Source of the DNA: a bacterium
GTDB taxonomy: Bacteria; Patescibacteriota; Gracilibacteria; Peribacterales; Peribacteraceae
NCBI GenBank assembly: GCA_029558515.1
Contig: JAKQEM010000042.1
Location: 1-64,000 of the forward strand
Reading direction: 5' to 3'
DNA length: 64,000 bases
The translations under genes and the position numbers were made by a program. Of this stretch, positions 49,377 to 57,636 are shown piece by piece. A model generated the notes under the pieces. That model ran no database searches. It saw nothing but the letters and a program-made list of their open reading frames with translations, and was not told the DNA's origin. Position 1 is the stretch's first letter; every line of letters starts with the position of its first letter.

Positions 49377-52300
49377 TCAGCGGGGGGTAAAACGGATAGT
49401 GACAGTGACGCCGTTGAGATCGAGCGAATGCGCATCGCCGGTATTCTTTTCGAGAATGGCCTTGGTCTCCTGCGCGATCATTCCTCCCTGCTCTCGCATC
49501 AGCGCATCGGCACCCTCCACTGCAAGAGCGATGGTATCTGCCGGAGAGAGACCCGCTTCCTTGCGCAGTCGCTGGATGAAGCGGATGAGATCGCGTGCAA
49601 AGCCTTCGGTTTTGAGGTCGTCCGTCAGGGCTGTCTCCAGGCTGACGACAATGCCGCCATGTGCCGCAATGTTCTGTCCTTCTGTGCCGCGATAGATGAT
49701 GGACGCTTCATCGGGTCCGAGGATTTCTTCCAGGATGAGGATCGATCCGTCCTCCCGGAGCGTGAAGTTGCCTTCCTTCCCCGCGCGGATGACCTCCTGC
49801 ACGCGCTTGCCGAGCCGCGGCCCGACCTTGCGGGCATCAACCATCACGATCGCCGTACCGAGAGACCCGGCATCTTCTGCCAGCACGATTTCCTTCACGT
49901 TCAGTTCCTGCCGCAGGAGAGCGAGATCTTCCGACGTTAGCATGCCGTCTTTGTGCAGATCGGGGGGGAGAGCCACGGTGGCGCGCGCGAGTGGCTGGCG
50001 GATTTTTATGGTGTGCTGTGCGCGGATCTGCAAGCCGAGCGATACGATCGATCGCAGCATTCTGTTCTTACGGAGCAGTTGCCGTTCTTCGTCGGAGAGC
50101 GCGCGCTGCGCGGGCCAGTCGGTCAGGTGGATGGAGCCATGCTCTTCGGGGACCAGATTCAAGTAGATCGCATCGGTGACGAAGGGGCAGAACGGAGCCA
50201 GTACCTGGGAGAGCGTGATCAGTACGTCATGCAGTGTCGTGAGCGCGTCGGAGCGGTCGTCATCAAAGAACGATTCCTCGGCTTCGGGATTGCGATCGTT
50301 GCTGATTCCTTTGCCGGCGAAGCGTCGCCGTGAGAGGCGGATGTACCAATTGGTCAGCGCATCGATGGTTTCATACAGTTCGGCGCATGTCGCGGAAAGA
50401 TCGTATCGGTCCAATTGCTCCGTCATGCGGTTGACCAAGTCCTGCACCTCCGCACGGATCCAGCGGTCCAGAGGATGATTGGAAAGCTTGGGTGTGGTGA
50501 CAGGTGTGAAGGTGCAGAGGTTGGCGTACGTCACGAAAAAACTGTAGCTGTTCCAGAGCGGCAGCAGCACGGAGCGCACCGTCTCTTCCACGATCTTCTC
50601 CGAGAAGCGCAGATCCTCGCCACGCACGGCGGGAGAGCTCATGAGGGCGAAGCGGAGTGCGTCGGCGCCGTGTCTCTCCACCACTTCCGTCGGCTCCGGG
50701 TAGTTCTTCAGCCGCTTGCTCATCTTGCGCCCGTCCTCCGCCAGCACGATGCCGTTGACGATGCAGTGACGGAAGGCAGGTTCGCGGAAAAGTGCGGAGG
50801 AGAGGACGGTTAAGGTATAGAACCATCCGCGCGTCTGGTCGATGCCTTCGGCGATGAAGTCGGCGGGGAAGCCCGGCGGCGTCGTTTCCATCACGTGGGG
50901 CAGGTGGGCGTCGGAGGAGCTGGCCCCCGCCACGCCGCGTCCGCTGTCGCCGTCCGGGGCAATGGATGCGAGGGTGGTGTGTCCCTGCTCGAAGGGGAAG
51001 TGTTTCTCGGCATACGGCATGGAACCCGATTCGAACCAGCAGTCGAGCACGTCGGGGATGCGGCGGTAGAGATTGCCATTGCGGTCCGGCCACGTGATCG
51101 CGTCCATTTTGTCTTTGTGCAGGTCCATCTGCGCGTTCGTATCGTGATCATAGAAGTAGCTTTCCGGCGTGGCGTAGGTGGGGAAGGGGCGATGACTCAG
51201 TTTGAACGTGTCTTCCTTCGTGAAGAAGTGGCGTATCGTCATGATGGGATCCGCGTGGGAGACGATCACGACGTGGTCGGAGCGGTGGCGGGGCAGTATT
51301 TCGGCGAGGAAGGATTCCGTGCGCTTGCGGACATCTTCCCAGCTCTCCATGCCGGGCAGGTGATGGACGCTCTCCGGCGCATTGTCTTCCAGTTTCTTTT
51401 GGCGGCGCAGTTTGATGATTGCCAGATCTTTGTCATCAAATGCTTTTTCTTCGTAGGGTCCCGATCCGACCTCGCGCAGGCGTTCATCCACAACGACCGT
51501 TGCGCCCGTGGCACGTGCGATTCTCTCAGCGGTCTGCTTGGTGCGATTCAATGGTGAACAGTAGATGACGTTGACATTCTTTGATGCGAGGAACGCTCCC
51601 GCCCTGTCCGCCTGCTCGATACCCGTCTTCGTGAGCGACACGCCCGGTGCTTCCGATTGGTAGAAGTGCCCGACGTTGTGTTCGCCTTCGCCGTGGCGGA
51701 CCGTCGTGATCTTCGTGAAGCGCATGCGACACTTGGCCATCAGATCATCGCGGCTGCCGATGACATCAATGTGCCCCGTTTCCGCGCAGCGCCAGACGGG
51801 CAGCGGCGTTCCCCAGTAGCGGCTCCGGGAAATCGCCCAGTCGCGCGCTCCTTCCAGCCAGTTGCCGAAACGACCGTCACGGATATGACTCGGCACCCAC
51901 TCGGTTTTGGCATTGGCATTCAGCATGTCTTCTTTGATCTTCTCAACGCTGACGAACCAGGAACTCGTTGCGTAATTGAGTAGCGGCGAGTCGCATCGCC
52001 AGCAGTGGGGGTAGCTGTGGCGGATGGTTTCCTTTCTCCAGACAAGCCCTTTTGCTTTGGCATCTTCGATGATGGGTTGCACAGCATCTCGCACATTCAT
52101 TCCCGCATAGGGGCCGGCAAGCGCATTGAATTGTCCGTTCATATCCACGTCCATGACGATGGGCAGATCGTTGCGTTTCGCAGCTTCCATATCGACCTCT
52201 CCATACGCACCGTTGATCGTCACGATGCCGGTGCCTTCCTGCGGATCGACGTAGTCTCCTGCGTAGATATGATACGTGCGGGGGTTCTCCCGTACTTCCG

Positions 52301-53192
52301 GAATGGTCGCATACCAATCTGCAATGTGTTCGTACTCTTTGCCGACAAGCGAGCTGCCGGGGAACTCATCGATGATCTCATAGTCTTCGATGCCCTTCAT
52401 GATGTCTTGCACTCGTTCCTTTCCGATGATGACTTCCTCGTCTCCCGTGCGGATTTTTACATATCGCGCATCAGGGTGAATGGAAAGCCCCATGGTGGAG
52501 AGCGTGCTCCATGGCGTGGTCGTCCAAGCCAAAACGAAGGTATGGGCGGTTCCTTTCAGTTTGAACTTCCACGTGGCGGCCGTGTCATCAATATCCTTGT
52601 AGCCCTGTGTGACCTCAAAGTTGCTGAGCGGCGTGACGCATCGTGGGCAGACATGCATCGCTTTTCTGCCTTCATAGATCAGATTCTTCTCATAGAGTTT
52701 CGCAAACACCCACCAGATACTCTCCATGTAGTCGGGATCCATGGTCCGGTAGTCCCAGTCCATGTCCACCCAGCGCCCCGTGCGCTCCACGGTCTTGCGC
52801 CACTCTTCCGCATAGCGCATCACCGAGGTCCGGCAGAGATCATTGAACGCACCCACGCCCATCTCTTCGATGTTCTGCTTGCTCTTGAGCCCGTTCTCCT
52901 GCTCAATGAGGTTCTCCACCGGCAGCCCGTGGCAGTCCCACCCGAACCGCCGCTGCACGAATTTTCCCCGCATGGTCTGGTACCGCGGGATGACGTCTTT
53001 GATGGTGCCGGCCAGCAGATGACCGTAGTGGGGCAGGCCCGTGGCGAAGGGCGGCCCGTCGTAGAAACTGAATGCTTCGCGTCCCTGCCGAAGCTGAAGA
53101 CTGCGTTGGAAGACGGCCTCCTCCCGCCAGTACTGCAGAATGGCGCGTTCCAGGTCGGGGAAGGATTGTTTTGGATCAACAGGGTCGAACAT
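49377..53192 (-). CDS. ileS: Isoleucyl-tRNA synthetase with inserted histidine-phosphatase domain
   Basis: 1271 residues from ATG 53192, six bases after TACACT on the minus strand. It has the class-II-like bacterial IleRS layout: HYGH signature near 52, editing domain, KMSKS near 820, DALRFALMSSPAVRGEDLRFS, and an anticodon domain. Between IGSRDDLMAKCRMR and DLHKDKMDAITW (about residues 490-688) lies an insertion. It carries the phosphoglycerate-mutase/histidine-phosphatase motifs TTVRHGEGEHN (His500), YCSPLNRTKQTAERI and VIVSHADPI (His646), so the phosphatase site looks intact. The rest is intact, and the enzyme presumably still charges tRNA-Ile. What the extra domain acts on is unknown. Confidence 0.93.
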   Translation of the reverse strand: MFDPVDPKQSFPDLERAILQYWREEAVFQRSLQLRQGREAFSFYDGPPFATGLPHYGHLLAGTIKDVIPRYQTMRGKFVQRRFGWDCHGLPVENLIEQENGLKSKQNIEEMGVGAFNDLCRTSVMRYAEEWRKTVERTGRWVDMDWDYRTMDPDYMESIWWVFAKLYEKNLIYEGRKAMHVCPRCVTPLSNFEVTQGYKDIDDTAATWKFKLKGTAHTFVLAWTTTPWSTLSTMGLSIHPDARYVKIRTGDEEVIIGKERVQDIMKGIEDYEIIDEFPGSSLVGKEYEHIADWYATIPEVRENPRTYHIYAGDYVDPQEGTGIVTINGAYGEVDMEAAKRNDLPIVMDVDMNGQFNALAGPYAGMNVRDAVQPIIEDAKAKGLVWRKETIRHSYPHCWRCDSPLLNYATSSWFVSVEKIKEDMLNANAKTEWVPSHIRDGRFGNWLEGARDWAISRSRYWGTPLPVWRCAETGHIDVIGSRDDLMAKCRMRFTKITTVRHGEGEHNVGHFYQSEAPGVSLTKTGIEQADRAGAFLASKNVNVIYCSPLNRTKQTAERIARATGATVVVDERLREVGSGPYEEKAFDDKDLAIIKLRRQKKLEDNAPESVHHLPGMESWEDVRKRTESFLAEILPRHRSDHVVIVSHADPIMTIRHFFTKEDTFKLSHRPFPTYATPESYFYDHDTNAQMDLHKDKMDAITWPDRNGNLYRRIPDVLDCWFESGSMPYAEKHFPFEQGHTTLASIAPDGDSGRGVAGASSSDAHLPHVMETTPPGFPADFIAEGIDQTRGWFYTLTVLSSALFREPAFRHCIVNGIVLAEDGRKMSKRLKNYPEPTEVVERHGADALRFALMSSPAVRGEDLRFSEKIVEETVRSVLLPLWNSYSFFVTYANLCTFTPVTTPKLSNHPLDRWIRAEVQDLVNRMTEQLDRYDLSATCAELYETIDALTNWYIRLSRRRFAGKGISNDRNPEAEESFFDDDRSDALTTLHDVLITLSQVLAPFCPFVTDAIYLNLVPEEHGSIHLTDWPAQRALSDEERQLLRKNRMLRSIVSLGLQIRAQHTIKIRQPLARATVALPPDLHKDGMLTSEDLALLRQELNVKEIVLAEDAGSLGTAIVMVDARKVGPRLGKRVQEVIRAGKEGNFTLREDGSILILEEILGPDEASIIYRGTEGQNIAAHGGIVVSLETALTDDLKTEGFARDLIRFIQRLRKEAGLSPADTIALAVEGADALMREQGGMIAQETKAILEKNTGDAHSLDLNGVTVTIRFTPR

Positions 53193-53198
53193 GGCTGC

Positions 53199-53204
53199 AG
53201 TGTA
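53199..53204 (-). promoter_or_regulatory. -10 box of ileS
   Basis: TACACT on the minus strand, six bases upstream of the ATG at 53192; the -35 is weak (TTTCGC with an 18-base spacer). Confidence 0.4.
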
Positions 53205-53291
53205 GAGGATAGAGCGCATGATGCGAAAGAACCTCGCTCCCACCTGCATGTCCGTGCAGAGTATTGGGAAATATCTCAGTGCAACAGAATA

Positions 53292-53319
53292 TTGACATTT
53301 GGCAAAACAAAACCATAAT
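53292..53319 (+). promoter_or_regulatory. Promoter of the 53326 gene
   Basis: TTGACA (53292-53297), a 16-base spacer and CATAAT (53314-53319), followed six bases later by ATG 53326. This is a near-consensus promoter and a predicted leaderless transcript. Confidence 0.7.
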
Positions 53320-53325
53320 GGGCGC

Positions 53326-53613
53326 ATGTCGACTCGTGAGTTACCTCTCAATCGCGCAAGTATGAGGGATCCAGCATCTGCGGTGGATCGTATTTTTAGT
53401 GATGATAGAGAGGGAAACTGGTGCCCTGCATCCTCGGATGGGTTGCCAATCGGTGCCTCTCCCGAAGCGGCGGGCATTGCTGCCAGCATTGTCGTTGAAC
53501 TGGAGGGTCGTCAATTGCAGGTAAGAAAAGGAGCAGAAATGCTTCTTGCGTTTGGATTAGCACTAATGCTCGAAAAGTGGCACAAAGATGGTGTTGTTTC
53601 TTTCATGAATTGA
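53326..53613 (+). CDS. Small hypothetical protein (95 aa)
   Basis: 95 residues from ATG 53326, decided by the TTGACA/CATAAT promoter six bases upstream. An Asp/Arg/Pro-rich first half is followed by a hydrophobic segment at about 70-84 (EMLLAFGLALMLEKW). It may be a peripheral or single-span membrane protein. No family is recognised. Confidence 0.6.
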   Translation: MSTRELPLNRASMRDPASAVDRIFSDDREGNWCPASSDGLPIGASPEAAGIAASIVVELEGRQLQVRKGAEMLLAFGLALMLEKWHKDGVVSFMN

Positions 53614-53733
53614 GTCCGTATCATCGCATCGCGCGTCACCCGCGCAGAGGAGATTCCATTGATTCCGCTTCTCAAATAAGAGAGAATATTGTACTTTGAA
53701 CGAGCGCATCGTTCTCTTCTACTCTGTCCGTTC

Positions 53734-54834
53734 ATGTCTGTATCAAACGCTTTCATCATCAGGCCGGAACAAATGGGTCCTTTCTTAAAGGCAGCCGAAA
53801 GAGACAAAGGCATTCCCGAGGCTGAGCCATCGGACGACATCACACGACGAATTATCGATGATACGCACGTGCGCTTGGCGGGTTTCGATAGACTGGGTAA
53901 CGGCATTGACCCGGCGCCGGACCTGGAGATGCTCAGATCGATTGAAGCTTCCGAGGCACGCTACATGGATGGACTACGCGCTGCCAGTGTTGATACGGAC
54001 TCTGAACGCGATGCGGAGGGTTTGAATGAGCAGATGCGGACATTGCTTGAGCGTTTTCGGACCCGTGGCATGCACATCTCACACTTTTCCGATGCGCAGA
54101 GAGAGTACATTCGGCGGAATGGCATCATCGTGTTCATTGAATGGGAAGTGCGGGAGGGAGTACGCGTTGTGCTGGGGGCGCTGACTGCGCTCTCCCGTGC
54201 GCGATGGGATCAAAGCGATGCCCAAGGACCCGATGGGTTGTGGGGCATGTTCCCCGGATACGATATGCGGAATATTGCCGCCTCCGATGAGGACAAGAGG
54301 CGTATGCAGGAGAGGGCGCCGGAAACATTCAGTATCTGCAGGTCCACCGTTCTTCCGTGCACGGGTCACCCGCTCGTATTGATGCAGGCGGAGAAACAGG
54401 GCGCGGAGATACCGGAGGAACTGAAGGATCACAGCACGCGTCGCATCGGATTGGGTGGTCGTGCCAAAGCAGTGGGATTGCTTATTGCACAAAAATTCGG
54501 AATGCGTTACGTCACTTCCAACAGGGCAGTCATACGGTATGGTGAAGGAGAGAAGGAGAAAAAGATTGAGAACGAACCCACTACCGGATTCAATAAGTGG
54601 GGGAGTGTGGTTGGTTGGCGCAATCGTGAGATACCCTTTGGTCAGCCTCTTGTGCTGATGATTCAAGAGTTGGCCTCACATACGCCGCTGTGGCAAGGAC
54701 TGAACGGGCTCATCGGGGAACGTGGCATTGCGATGCGCAAGGGACACTCAGAGGAGAAGATTCGGCAGGAGGCTGCATTTTGGAAAGATGCACTGGAAAA
54801 TAGCATTGCTTCCGGCGACCATGAGCCTTGGTGA
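53734..54834 (+). CDS. Hypothetical protein (366 aa)
   Basis: Soluble, charged protein from ATG 53734, with TTGAAC, an 18-base spacer and TACTCT upstream (eight-base gap). No motif I can name. It has conserved-looking stretches such as DGLWGMFPGYDMRNIAASDEDKRRMQ and RAKAVGLLIAQKFGMRYVTSNRAVIRYGEGEKEKK, with many Arg and Glu and no signal peptide. The stop is ten bases from the convergent rel stop. It could be an enzyme, but nothing shows a catalytic site. Confidence 0.55.
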   Translation: MSVSNAFIIRPEQMGPFLKAAERDKGIPEAEPSDDITRRIIDDTHVRLAGFDRLGNGIDPAPDLEMLRSIEASEARYMDGLRAASVDTDSERDAEGLNEQMRTLLERFRTRGMHISHFSDAQREYIRRNGIIVFIEWEVREGVRVVLGALTALSRARWDQSDAQGPDGLWGMFPGYDMRNIAASDEDKRRMQERAPETFSICRSTVLPCTGHPLVLMQAEKQGAEIPEELKDHSTRRIGLGGRAKAVGLLIAQKFGMRYVTSNRAVIRYGEGEKEKKIENEPTTGFNKWGSVVGWRNREIPFGQPLVLMIQELASHTPLWQGLNGLIGERGIAMRKGHSEEKIRQEAAFWKDALENSIASGDHEPW

Positions 54835-54843
54835 TACCCATGC

Positions 54844-57600
54844 TTACGCAGGCTTTCGGTGCGATTGCATATGAAACAGGAGGTACGTGCCGACGAGTAC
54901 GGCAGTCATCACAAAATACTGCCACGGGGCGAGGAGGATTCCCAGCAGGGCGATCTCGCCGACGACCGCAATGGGGTTTTCCAAGATGGATCGTGAGGAG
55001 AGTGCTTCCACCTGCCTGCGATTGGAGAGCATGTACATGAATGCGTGCGGCAGGAAAACGCAGACAACGACATACAGTGATGCGAGGGCGATGTGCATGG
55101 GTAACAATGCGCCCCACTTTATGAAGGGCGTGAGACCGAGTCCTGCGATGCTCATGAGGATGCCGGATGCGAAAAAGAGTGAATGGTGTCGCAGGCCAAT
55201 GCGATGTTCCTGCAGAGTGCATTCCACGCAGGTGGAATACAGCACATACGTACACAATGCGAGAACGGAGAAGAGCGTCCCCCAACCGATCGTGATGGGA
55301 CGAATGTCGAAGAGAAAGATGATGCCTGTAGCCGCCAGCGCTGCCGCCGTGACGGCGAATACCCGCATACCGGTTGATCGTGAGAAAGCATGTAAAAGAG
55401 GAAGGAGGACGATGTTGATGCGTAGAATGGTGAGGTGCAGGGAGGGAGGGAGACTCGCCAGTGCTTCATAGGTGAATGCGGCCAGAGCAATGGTGAGCAG
55501 TGTGGGAGTGAAGGAAAGGCGCAAGAGTTGCAGGAAGGGAATCTTGACATATCGCTCTCCCGAGGCATGTCTCCACACAACGTAGACGATCGTGGCACAG
55601 ATGCCGAACGTCATCGTACGAATGCTCACGAGCGTGAGGGGAGTCATGCCGGAACGCAAGAGCATCGCAGCGAAGACCGGGTTGAGCCCCCACAACAGAA
55701 TGATGAGCGTTGTCAGCAGCCGTGTGGAAAATGAAACGGATCGCAGGTCCATGGATTGAACATCGATGCGATGGAGTTTCTGTTCCAAGTGTATCGCTTG
55801 CTCAGACGTCAGTTTACCGAGTGCACGCACCGTAATGGTTTGCGTGGGAAGGTGTCGTTTGAAGCGCAGTCTCAGCACATCGTGTTCCAGCAGGAGCGCA
55901 TGTACACCGGGCCATTGTTGGAACAGAAATTTGCAGTGGAGCAGCCACAGTGACGTACGCTTCTCTCGTTCCGAACTCGGGGGATAGAGCACGCGTTCGA
56001 CTGTTTCCGGAAGAATGCGTCCCTCGGCAATATGCGTGTAGAGCGTATCCATATCTCCCGCGATGCCTTGTTCTTCCAATGCCGAGGAAATGGATTGATC
56101 GCTCAATTCAGAAATGTAGCCTCTTTGGTGTGCCAGGAGGTATTCCTGCAGCAGCTGCTTGCCGGTTGTGATCTTCACGGATTGCTTCTCCTTCGCCAGC
56201 GCGGAACGGATCAAGGCGGAGCCAATGCCGGAATGGGTCCAGTGCAACCATTCGCGCTGCACACGGAGCGTGCGATCCACGTCGATCTCCAGAACGTCCG
56301 CCCGCGTCAGTGCATGCGTCGGTGATACTTTCTTGCCGTTAACGTACAAGGCCGTGAGACGTAGTGCGGATTCGGGGTAGAGATACAGAGCGCCGTCGAG
56401 AGCGGTAGCATTGGTCGGCACCAGTACGGACCGGTTCTCGTTTCCATAGATGACGAATGATTCGCTGAGGATATCGCTCTGCAGCGTTTCCCAGAAAGCG
56501 GTACTTCGGTCGCGCGTATCACTGGCAAGCGGCCCGATGTGCCGGGTCCACGGAAGGTACTCCAGCACTCCGCGCGCATGCGTTTCGAAACAGACGGTGG
56601 CGATGCCGCGGCGAGAGTAGGCGTCCATGCCGTACGTGCGGATTTTGCATCGCAGGTGCGTGCCGTCCGGCAGGATGACAGTCGTCTGCAGTCCGCGGTA
56701 GCCGTTGATGGCCGGTACGTTGATGAAGTCGTCGAATGTCAAAACGATGCGCGGCCAGGTCAGGTGAATGGCACCCAGCATCCGGTAACATTCCTCCGCG
56801 CTCTCACAGAGGAAAGAAGCGTTCAGGAGGAGGGAGGGATGATGCGATGTTTCTTTTTCCAACTCATATTGTATGTGCAGGTTTTCCCAGGATTTTGGTT
56901 CGAAGGCGATATCCAGCTTCAATCCGGGCGTACGTACTTCCAGCTGCGCACGGAGTGACGGTGCGATGGATGAAAATCTCTTGCGGTTGCGTTCGCGTAC
57001 CATCAGCAGCGTATCGTGCAGTTCGGGTTCCAGTACGCCGTGGCAGAGCATGGACAATTCGTCACGCAAGTCCCGCATGCAGAGTCGATCGGCGATCTTC
57101 ACGTACAGGTCCAGCGTTTCCTTGGCCACGGCGCGTTGCTTGTCCGGCGGACGGAAGCCGATGGTTTGCATGTTGTGCAGACGGTCGGCCAGTTTGATGG
57201 TGATGACGCGCACGTCTTTTTCCATCACGCCGAACATGCGTCGCAGTGTCTCGATCTTCTCATCCATGGTCGGCTGATGCGAGAGCTCCGTTTCAGCCAG
57301 CTTGGTCAGGCCTTGAATCATGGTGGAGACTCTTTCGCCGAATCGTGCATGCACTTCCTCCAGGGTCAATGCAGTGTCTTCGACAGTATCGTGCAGGAGC
57401 GCCGCAATCAGTGTTTCCGCATCGGCGTTCAGGAGCGCCAGGTACTGTGCGACGGCGACGGGATGGGAGAAGAACGGCAGGCCCGACTCCCGCAGTTGTC
57501 CCCGGTGATACTGCTCACCCAGCAGAAACGCTTCCTCCACTGTTTTCCGGTCCGTCGGGGAGAGATGCCGGATATGCTTGGAGAAGTCCCGCCATGACAT
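54844..57600 (-). CDS. rel: Rel-type (p)ppGpp protein fused to EamA-like membrane domain
   Basis: 918 residues from ATG 57600, the start given by the TATAGT box seven bases upstream. Order: HD hydrolase domain (about 25-195; HPVAVAQYLALLNADAETLIAALLHDTVEDT, His46, His70-Asp71; KLADRLHNMQTI). A synthetase-like domain follows (about 230-375) with CYRMLGAIHLTW and NGYRGLQTTVI, but the catalytic ExQIRT reads RCKIRT, so synthesis is probably lost. Then come TGS (about 380-445), a helical region, and a C-terminal block of about ten membrane spans (about 618-918) with an EamA/DMT look (LWGLNPVFAAMLLRSG). The likely activity is (p)ppGpp hydrolysis, anchored to the membrane; the transport domain replaces the usual ACT end. 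I am not aware of this fusion being described. Confidence 0.88.
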   Translation of the reverse strand: MSWRDFSKHIRHLSPTDRKTVEEAFLLGEQYHRGQLRESGLPFFSHPVAVAQYLALLNADAETLIAALLHDTVEDTALTLEEVHARFGERVSTMIQGLTKLAETELSHQPTMDEKIETLRRMFGVMEKDVRVITIKLADRLHNMQTIGFRPPDKQRAVAKETLDLYVKIADRLCMRDLRDELSMLCHGVLEPELHDTLLMVRERNRKRFSSIAPSLRAQLEVRTPGLKLDIAFEPKSWENLHIQYELEKETSHHPSLLLNASFLCESAEECYRMLGAIHLTWPRIVLTFDDFINVPAINGYRGLQTTVILPDGTHLRCKIRTYGMDAYSRRGIATVCFETHARGVLEYLPWTRHIGPLASDTRDRSTAFWETLQSDILSESFVIYGNENRSVLVPTNATALDGALYLYPESALRLTALYVNGKKVSPTHALTRADVLEIDVDRTLRVQREWLHWTHSGIGSALIRSALAKEKQSVKITTGKQLLQEYLLAHQRGYISELSDQSISSALEEQGIAGDMDTLYTHIAEGRILPETVERVLYPPSSEREKRTSLWLLHCKFLFQQWPGVHALLLEHDVLRLRFKRHLPTQTITVRALGKLTSEQAIHLEQKLHRIDVQSMDLRSVSFSTRLLTTLIILLWGLNPVFAAMLLRSGMTPLTLVSIRTMTFGICATIVYVVWRHASGERYVKIPFLQLLRLSFTPTLLTIALAAFTYEALASLPPSLHLTILRINIVLLPLLHAFSRSTGMRVFAVTAAALAATGIIFLFDIRPITIGWGTLFSVLALCTYVLYSTCVECTLQEHRIGLRHHSLFFASGILMSIAGLGLTPFIKWGALLPMHIALASLYVVVCVFLPHAFMYMLSNRRQVEALSSRSILENPIAVVGEIALLGILLAPWQYFVMTAVLVGTYLLFHMQSHRKPA

Positions 57601-57607
57601 ACGGGGT

Positions 57608-57636
57608 ACTATAACCATTTTTCGGCAGTACGTAAA
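57608..57636 (-). promoter_or_regulatory. Promoter of the rel-EamA gene
   Basis: On the minus strand TTTACG (57636-57631), a 17-base spacer and TATAGT (57613-57608), with the ATG seven bases further on. Near-leaderless. Confidence 0.65.

Follow-up and report, generated by a model that had tools for sequence, protein, structure and literature searches.

A predicted membrane-anchored, hydrolase-only RSH protein with a DMT-type transporter fold in Peribacteraceae

The window analysed here, a stretch of 64,000 nucleotides from a member of Peribacteraceae (assembly GCA_029558515.1, contig JAKQEM010000042.1), encodes a protein of 918 residues in which a long RSH enzyme is continued, in the same reading frame, by a ten-helix membrane domain. 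The source genome (1.31 Mb, 99% complete, 49 contigs) also encodes a soluble RSH with the reciprocal active-site losses. An initial annotation, made from the nucleotide sequence, had proposed a membrane-tethered (p)ppGpp hydrolase, and conservation, topology, structure prediction and the reciprocal partner enzyme together lend strong support to a hydrolase-only RSH of this kind. Counting from the N-terminus, the protein contains an HD domain, a dead synthetase, a TGS domain, a helical region, an ACT-like fold and the membrane domain of the DMT/EamA fold (Table 1).

Table 1. Location of the RSH-DMT fusion gene and its predicted features in the window
Feature	Residues	Position	Strand	Remarks
RSH-DMT fusion gene	918 aa	54844..57600	(-)	stop codon 54844-54846
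Promoter-like TTTACG-17-TATAGT		57608..57636	(-)	immediately upstream of the ATG; consensus match only
HD (p)ppGpp hydrolase domain	1-190	57031..57600	(-)	catalytic R, H, HD, ED, D, N all kept
Pseudo-synthetase domain	~229-345	56566..56916	(-)	catalytic Glu replaced by Arg317; loss of the metal Asp and of most ATP-site Arg/Lys; guanine-loop Tyr301 retained
TGS domain	~379-442	56275..56466	(-)	tRNA-contact histidine (RelA H432) lost
Alpha-helical region	~443-545	55966..56274	(-)	without zinc-finger cysteines
ACT-like beta-alpha-beta-beta-alpha-beta fold	~548-623	55732..55959	(-)	predicted fold; sequence homology weak
Ten-helix DMT/EamA-type membrane domain	624-913	54862..55731	(-)	N-in/C-in; model, fold and profile match

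The frame is open over all 918 codons without interruption, and the ATG at 57600, encoding M1, is near-invariant among the relatives. The window protein has the HD, SYNTH and TGS order and the homology of long RSHs; Pfam searches revealed HD_4 (9e-39), RelA_SpoT (1e-8) and, weakly, TGS, and the PDB sequence matches are Rel, RelA and SpoT proteins across residues 12-541. The NCBIfam model spoT_relA (TIGR00691) matches residues 24-549 with 340 bits, which is under its curated cut-off of 499 bits.

The catalytic residues were compared by alignment with E. coli SpoT and RelA, SpoT numbering being used for the HD residues. R39, H48, H72, D73, E76, D77, D139 and N143 are kept in all 34 RSH-DMT proteins, and the HD motifs of the window protein, first reported as intact, proved to be so. 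The synthetase residues E319 and D259 are kept in none of the 34, and the ATP-site residues R236, K246, R290 and K292 are mostly lost in nearly all of them; the replacement of E-x-Q-I-R-T by RCKIRT, which had been noticed earlier, was confirmed, and the metal-binding Asp is lost as well. Since the equivalents of E319 and D259 are missing throughout, the window protein is, judging by the alignment, a hydrolase-only long RSH, neither a bifunctional Rel nor a RelA. Remnants of the synthetase site include the guanine-loop Tyr (32/34), the next His (30/34; Gln in the window protein) and the Arg of IRT (30/34). The column conservation of the pseudo-synthetase (0.64) is near that of the HD domain (0.71) and far above that of the linker (0.39), so the dead synthetase is under selection; it probably persists as a nucleotide-binding regulatory or allosteric pocket.

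Exactly one other RelA_SpoT domain was found in the window's genome, in a protein of about 630 residues with no membrane helix (L058), and no long RSH encoded there other than the fusion protein has an intact hydrolase. L058 has LLHHVLEA at the position of the HD/ED motif and an intact synthetase (RFKDF...EVQIRT). Of 27 such partner proteins in the class, 26 lack the HD Asp, and the tested synthetase residues are present, apart from a few conservative Arg/Lys exchanges. The histidine of the TGS domain that corresponds to RelA H432 occurs in all 27 partners and in one of the 34 RSH-DMT proteins, and the zinc-finger position is occupied by a Cys-Cys pair in 24 of the partners and in none of the RSH-DMT proteins. 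The reciprocal site losses in two paralogues argue that the two activities of Rel are divided, in parallel to RelA and SpoT, between a predicted soluble synthetase with translation-sensing parts and a predicted membrane hydrolase.

The Pfam match to TGS is weak, and the domain, as initially assigned, is clear in the structural model. AlphaFold2 modelling on the family alignment (mean pLDDT 87, pTM 0.72) also revealed an ACT-like fold, overlooked in the initial annotation, between the helical region and the membrane part; the secondary structure elements of residues 550-622 are predicted in the ACT order, where relatives have an ACT domain (the C-terminal ACT/RRM-type position), and the comparison with ACT profiles gave a weak match (17%). 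Because this fold precedes the membrane part, the membrane domain in the model comes after the sensor-domain position and does not simply replace the sensor domain.

The same model contains ten helices after residue 624, with an uncertain placement of the domains relative to each other (pTM 0.72), and the isolated membrane domain was modelled with a pLDDT of 91 and a pTM of 0.89. Family means of Lys and Arg are 1.5-3.5 for the inside loops vs 0.1-0.9 for the outside loops, which fits an N-in/C-in topology. The earlier description of the C-terminus as an EamA-like ten-span domain was upheld by the number of helices, the fold, Pfam matches of relatives and profile-profile comparison, but not by the window protein alone, the last ~290 residues of which gave no Pfam match, EamA included. 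EamA (PF00892) was detected by Pfam in 18 of 30 relatives (best 1e-8), and an hhalign comparison between the family profile and free-standing EamA proteins of the same clade gave 97.8% over 269 columns. The top Foldseek matches of the membrane domain are DMT transporters, namely SLC35B1 (E 3e-5), 5i20 (presumably YddG), the CMP-sialic acid transporter, Vrg4 and the triose-phosphate translocator (TPT, TM 0.74); the best 36 matches, with TM scores of 0.42-0.74 by query length, are what we take to be nucleotide-sugar, triose-phosphate, YddG, choline and SLC35B1 transporters of the DMT fold. R661, R804 and P851 are invariant and W637, P641 and Y711 near-invariant, but the DMT domain evolves faster than the enzyme (column conservation 0.41 vs 0.71) and few of its polar residues are conserved, so that no specific ligand is evident. 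A chance hydrophobic read-through is ruled out by the positive-inside pattern, the fold and the conservation.

A profile search of 353 genomes of the class detected the full-length fusion in 43, of which 37 belong to the window's family (74 genomes searched) and six to five other families. In all 43, a single frame runs from the HD domain through the last helix, and the one uninterrupted frame proposed at the outset, with Rel fused to a membrane domain, was thereby borne out in more than 40 independent genomes. A second genome collection gave 39 named loci of the family protein, most of them full length. All named relatives that have this protein are genomes from metagenomes. The usual locus lies between uvrA (32/39 named loci) and ileS (31/39), with a redoxin gene often close to the fusion gene (21 of 39), and the neighbouring genes at the 39 loci indicated no functional partner. 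A sample of 343 genomes from the rest of the phylum contained, among the RSH frames listed, none longer than 753 aa and none aligning into the membrane part. Other phyla were surveyed for RSH-membrane fusions by one contig scan keyed to the motifs of the window's family, and a scan of IMG/VR found ordinary long RSHs or HD-only matches, the five longest without a C-terminal membrane part.

Other families of the class have an ordinary soluble bifunctional Rel, or a Rel that carries an ACT domain and ends in four helices, where the transmembrane counts of relatives are by hydropathy only. The catalytic Glu is intact in 10 of 11 four-helix Rel proteins. The ACT and four-helix type (L053, L189-L194, L196, L203), mostly with synthetase motifs and widespread in these families, is apparently another undescribed membrane RSH. 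A third form has four helices followed by an EamA domain, which is over the Pfam cut-off in several members; the four-helix parts of the second and third forms are homologous to each other (profile comparison 96%; controls 7% and 1%). In trees from a quick search, the deep branches of which are weak, the DMT-bearing RSHs all fall into one clade (support 98) that adjoins soluble hydrolase-only forms inside a larger group with the four-helix forms. The DMT domain of the RSH-DMT proteins matches free-standing EamA proteins about as well as it matches that of the RSH-4TM-DMT proteins, a result that speaks neither for nor against a single origin of both DMT types. Both membrane types are present in several genomes (G019, G026, G038, G040, G046, G050), and one protein at the uvrA...ileS locus (G022/L169, G022:C8) combines the window's type of RSH core with a membrane part of the other, 4-helix+DMT type, which points to a membrane module that was exchanged or differently retained. 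An RSH frame of 1107 aa (L198, G310:C124) continues after about three helices into a soluble C-terminal domain unlike the others. Soluble hydrolase-only RSHs of ~650-750 aa with a dead synthetase (L259-L271) come from members of the family mostly without the RSH-DMT fusion; they were found in 13 family genomes that had no detected fusion or had other forms.

Sequence comparison and structure prediction show the intact HD site, the dead synthetase, the ten-helix DMT fold, the reciprocal partner and the conservation; hydrolysis, a ligand and their coupling are inferred. The reading that we consider moderately probable is that the fusion protein forms the SpoT-like half of a Rel system split in two: a (p)ppGpp hydrolase anchored in the membrane by its DMT domain, gated by ligand binding or transport in that domain and paired with a soluble, ribosome/tRNA-sensing synthetase. 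The DMT-superfamily domain would anchor the hydrolase in the cytoplasmic membrane; a small metabolite bound or transported by it would change its conformation, and this change would be relayed via the ACT-like/TGS region, so that the HD site opens or closes. Removal of ppGpp when the metabolite is available would be the expected direction, guessed from the logic of the stringent response, and the soluble synthetase-only RSH encoded elsewhere in the genome would make ppGpp while sensing the ribosome and tRNA. In the SpoT of Acinetobacter baumannii, the HD site is under the joint control of the Core and the TGS and C-terminal domains (PMC9974481), and a ready relay path may therefore exist in the RSH-DMT proteins. 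A response to a transported or bound small molecule, suggested in the initial annotation, is plausible, given that the DMT fold is retained and that related enzyme cores bear different membrane modules. Against this gated, membrane-anchored hydrolase stands the large share of the family's genomes that manage with a soluble hydrolase-only RSH; membrane sensing is thus not indispensable. The faster evolution of the DMT domain and the uncertain arrangement of the domains in the model also count against it.

A more far-reaching version, which we put forward tentatively and with some doubt, is a stringent-response 'transceptor', where the DMT domain would carry or bind a metabolite and its conformational cycle would directly switch (p)ppGpp hydrolysis, and where the interchangeable modules (4-helix, 4-helix+DMT, DMT) would tune paralogues to different ligands. 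It is rather unlikely that the membrane domain is a former transporter that now acts as an anchor only, the hydrolase being regulated by nucleotides or soluble factors. The rapid divergence of the membrane part would suit an anchor, as would the relatives with a different four-helix module instead and the soluble forms in the same family; however, a ten-helix DMT fold kept in more than 40 genomes of six families is costly for an anchor, and the invariant and near-invariant membrane residues, as well as the genomes that keep two paralogues with different membrane modules, also speak against a role as an anchor only.

The reverse direction, in which the RSH part would sense (p)ppGpp and gate a working DMT transporter, so that the alarmone controls uptake or export, agrees with the intact DMT fold, and the control of transporters by nucleotide domains is a known theme; it is nonetheless improbable, since mere sensing would not need invariant HD catalytic residues, and the genome has no other long RSH with an intact hydrolase. 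Equally small is the chance that the HD domain acts mainly on another nucleotide, e.g., (p)ppApp or pGpp: HD-type RSH hydrolases can be promiscuous, but the full residue set of a long-RSH hydrolase and the Rel-type partner synthetase point to (p)ppGpp. A misassembly, or the reading of two separate genes as a single one, can be dismissed, given the same single frame in all these independent genomes, mostly at the common uvrA...ileS locus and including a one-contig assembly (G030).

The SpoT of A. baumannii (PDB 7qpr, PMC9974481) is the best whole-length fold match to the window protein. It has an active HD domain, a pseudo-synthetase, TGS, a helical region and a C-terminal ACT/RRM-type fold, and is hydrolase-only, counteracting a synthetase RelA. 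The window protein is predicted to resemble it in these domains, with an ACT-like fold that is weak at the sequence level, and in being a hydrolase-only long RSH beside a synthetase. Unlike the window protein, this SpoT contains a zinc-finger domain and lacks a membrane domain, and the words 'membrane' and 'transmembrane' are both absent from the text on it (PMC9974481). The partner L058 shows the same loss as the RelA[hS] of beta/gamma-proteobacteria, i.e., a dead HD and a live synthetase, but is placed in the tree (deep branches weak) among the soluble RSHs of its class, apart from E. coli RelA; the RelA/SpoT-like split in these CPR bacteria is for this reason probably independent. Members of the DMT superfamily (EamA PF00892; SLC35B1, YddG, TPT, CMP-sialic acid transporter) have the ten helices, the N-in/C-in topology and the fold and profile match in common with the membrane domain, whereas the putative transporter domain in the window is fused to an RSH and lies under Pfam detection. 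The 7TMR-HD/PgpH c-di-AMP phosphodiesterases resemble such a system in that a membrane domain is coupled to a cytoplasmic HD domain that hydrolyses a nucleotide messenger, but the HD family, the messenger and the membrane fold are different; the membrane domain of one relative matched PF07698 (6e-5).

Long RSH enzymes are regarded as cytoplasmic proteins, and it is still a matter of debate how most starvation signals are sensed by SpoT-type hydrolases; CPR bacteria are thought to import many metabolites. If the transceptor reading is true, these proteins would be the first integral-membrane RSH family. Metabolite or nutrient sensing at the membrane may directly switch the ppGpp alarm off. The conserved lineage makes the idea that synthesis senses translation and hydrolysis senses nutrients at the membrane directly testable. 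It would also be a second case of a RelA/SpoT-like division of labour, probably independent of the first and found in tiny, uncultured CPR bacteria. A search of a limited literature collection found no description of membrane-embedded RSH enzymes, although descriptions may exist elsewhere; the 2011 survey of the RSH superfamily (PMC3153485) covers long RSHs, small synthetases and small hydrolases and does not contain the word 'transmembrane', and ppGpp goes unmentioned in the genome paper on Peribacteria.

Two neighbours of the fusion gene have features of their own. A frame of 381 aa, convergent with the fusion gene (53689-54834, plus strand), has no Pfam match and has relatives in place at two loci only (L150, L171). 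The isoleucyl-tRNA synthetase encoded at 49377-53489 (minus strand) carries a His_Phos_1 domain (8.5e-35, residues 596-757) inserted within its catalytic core, and at least nine relatives have the insert in their ileS region as well (L184, L153, L180, L165, L157, L171, L181, L162, L178).
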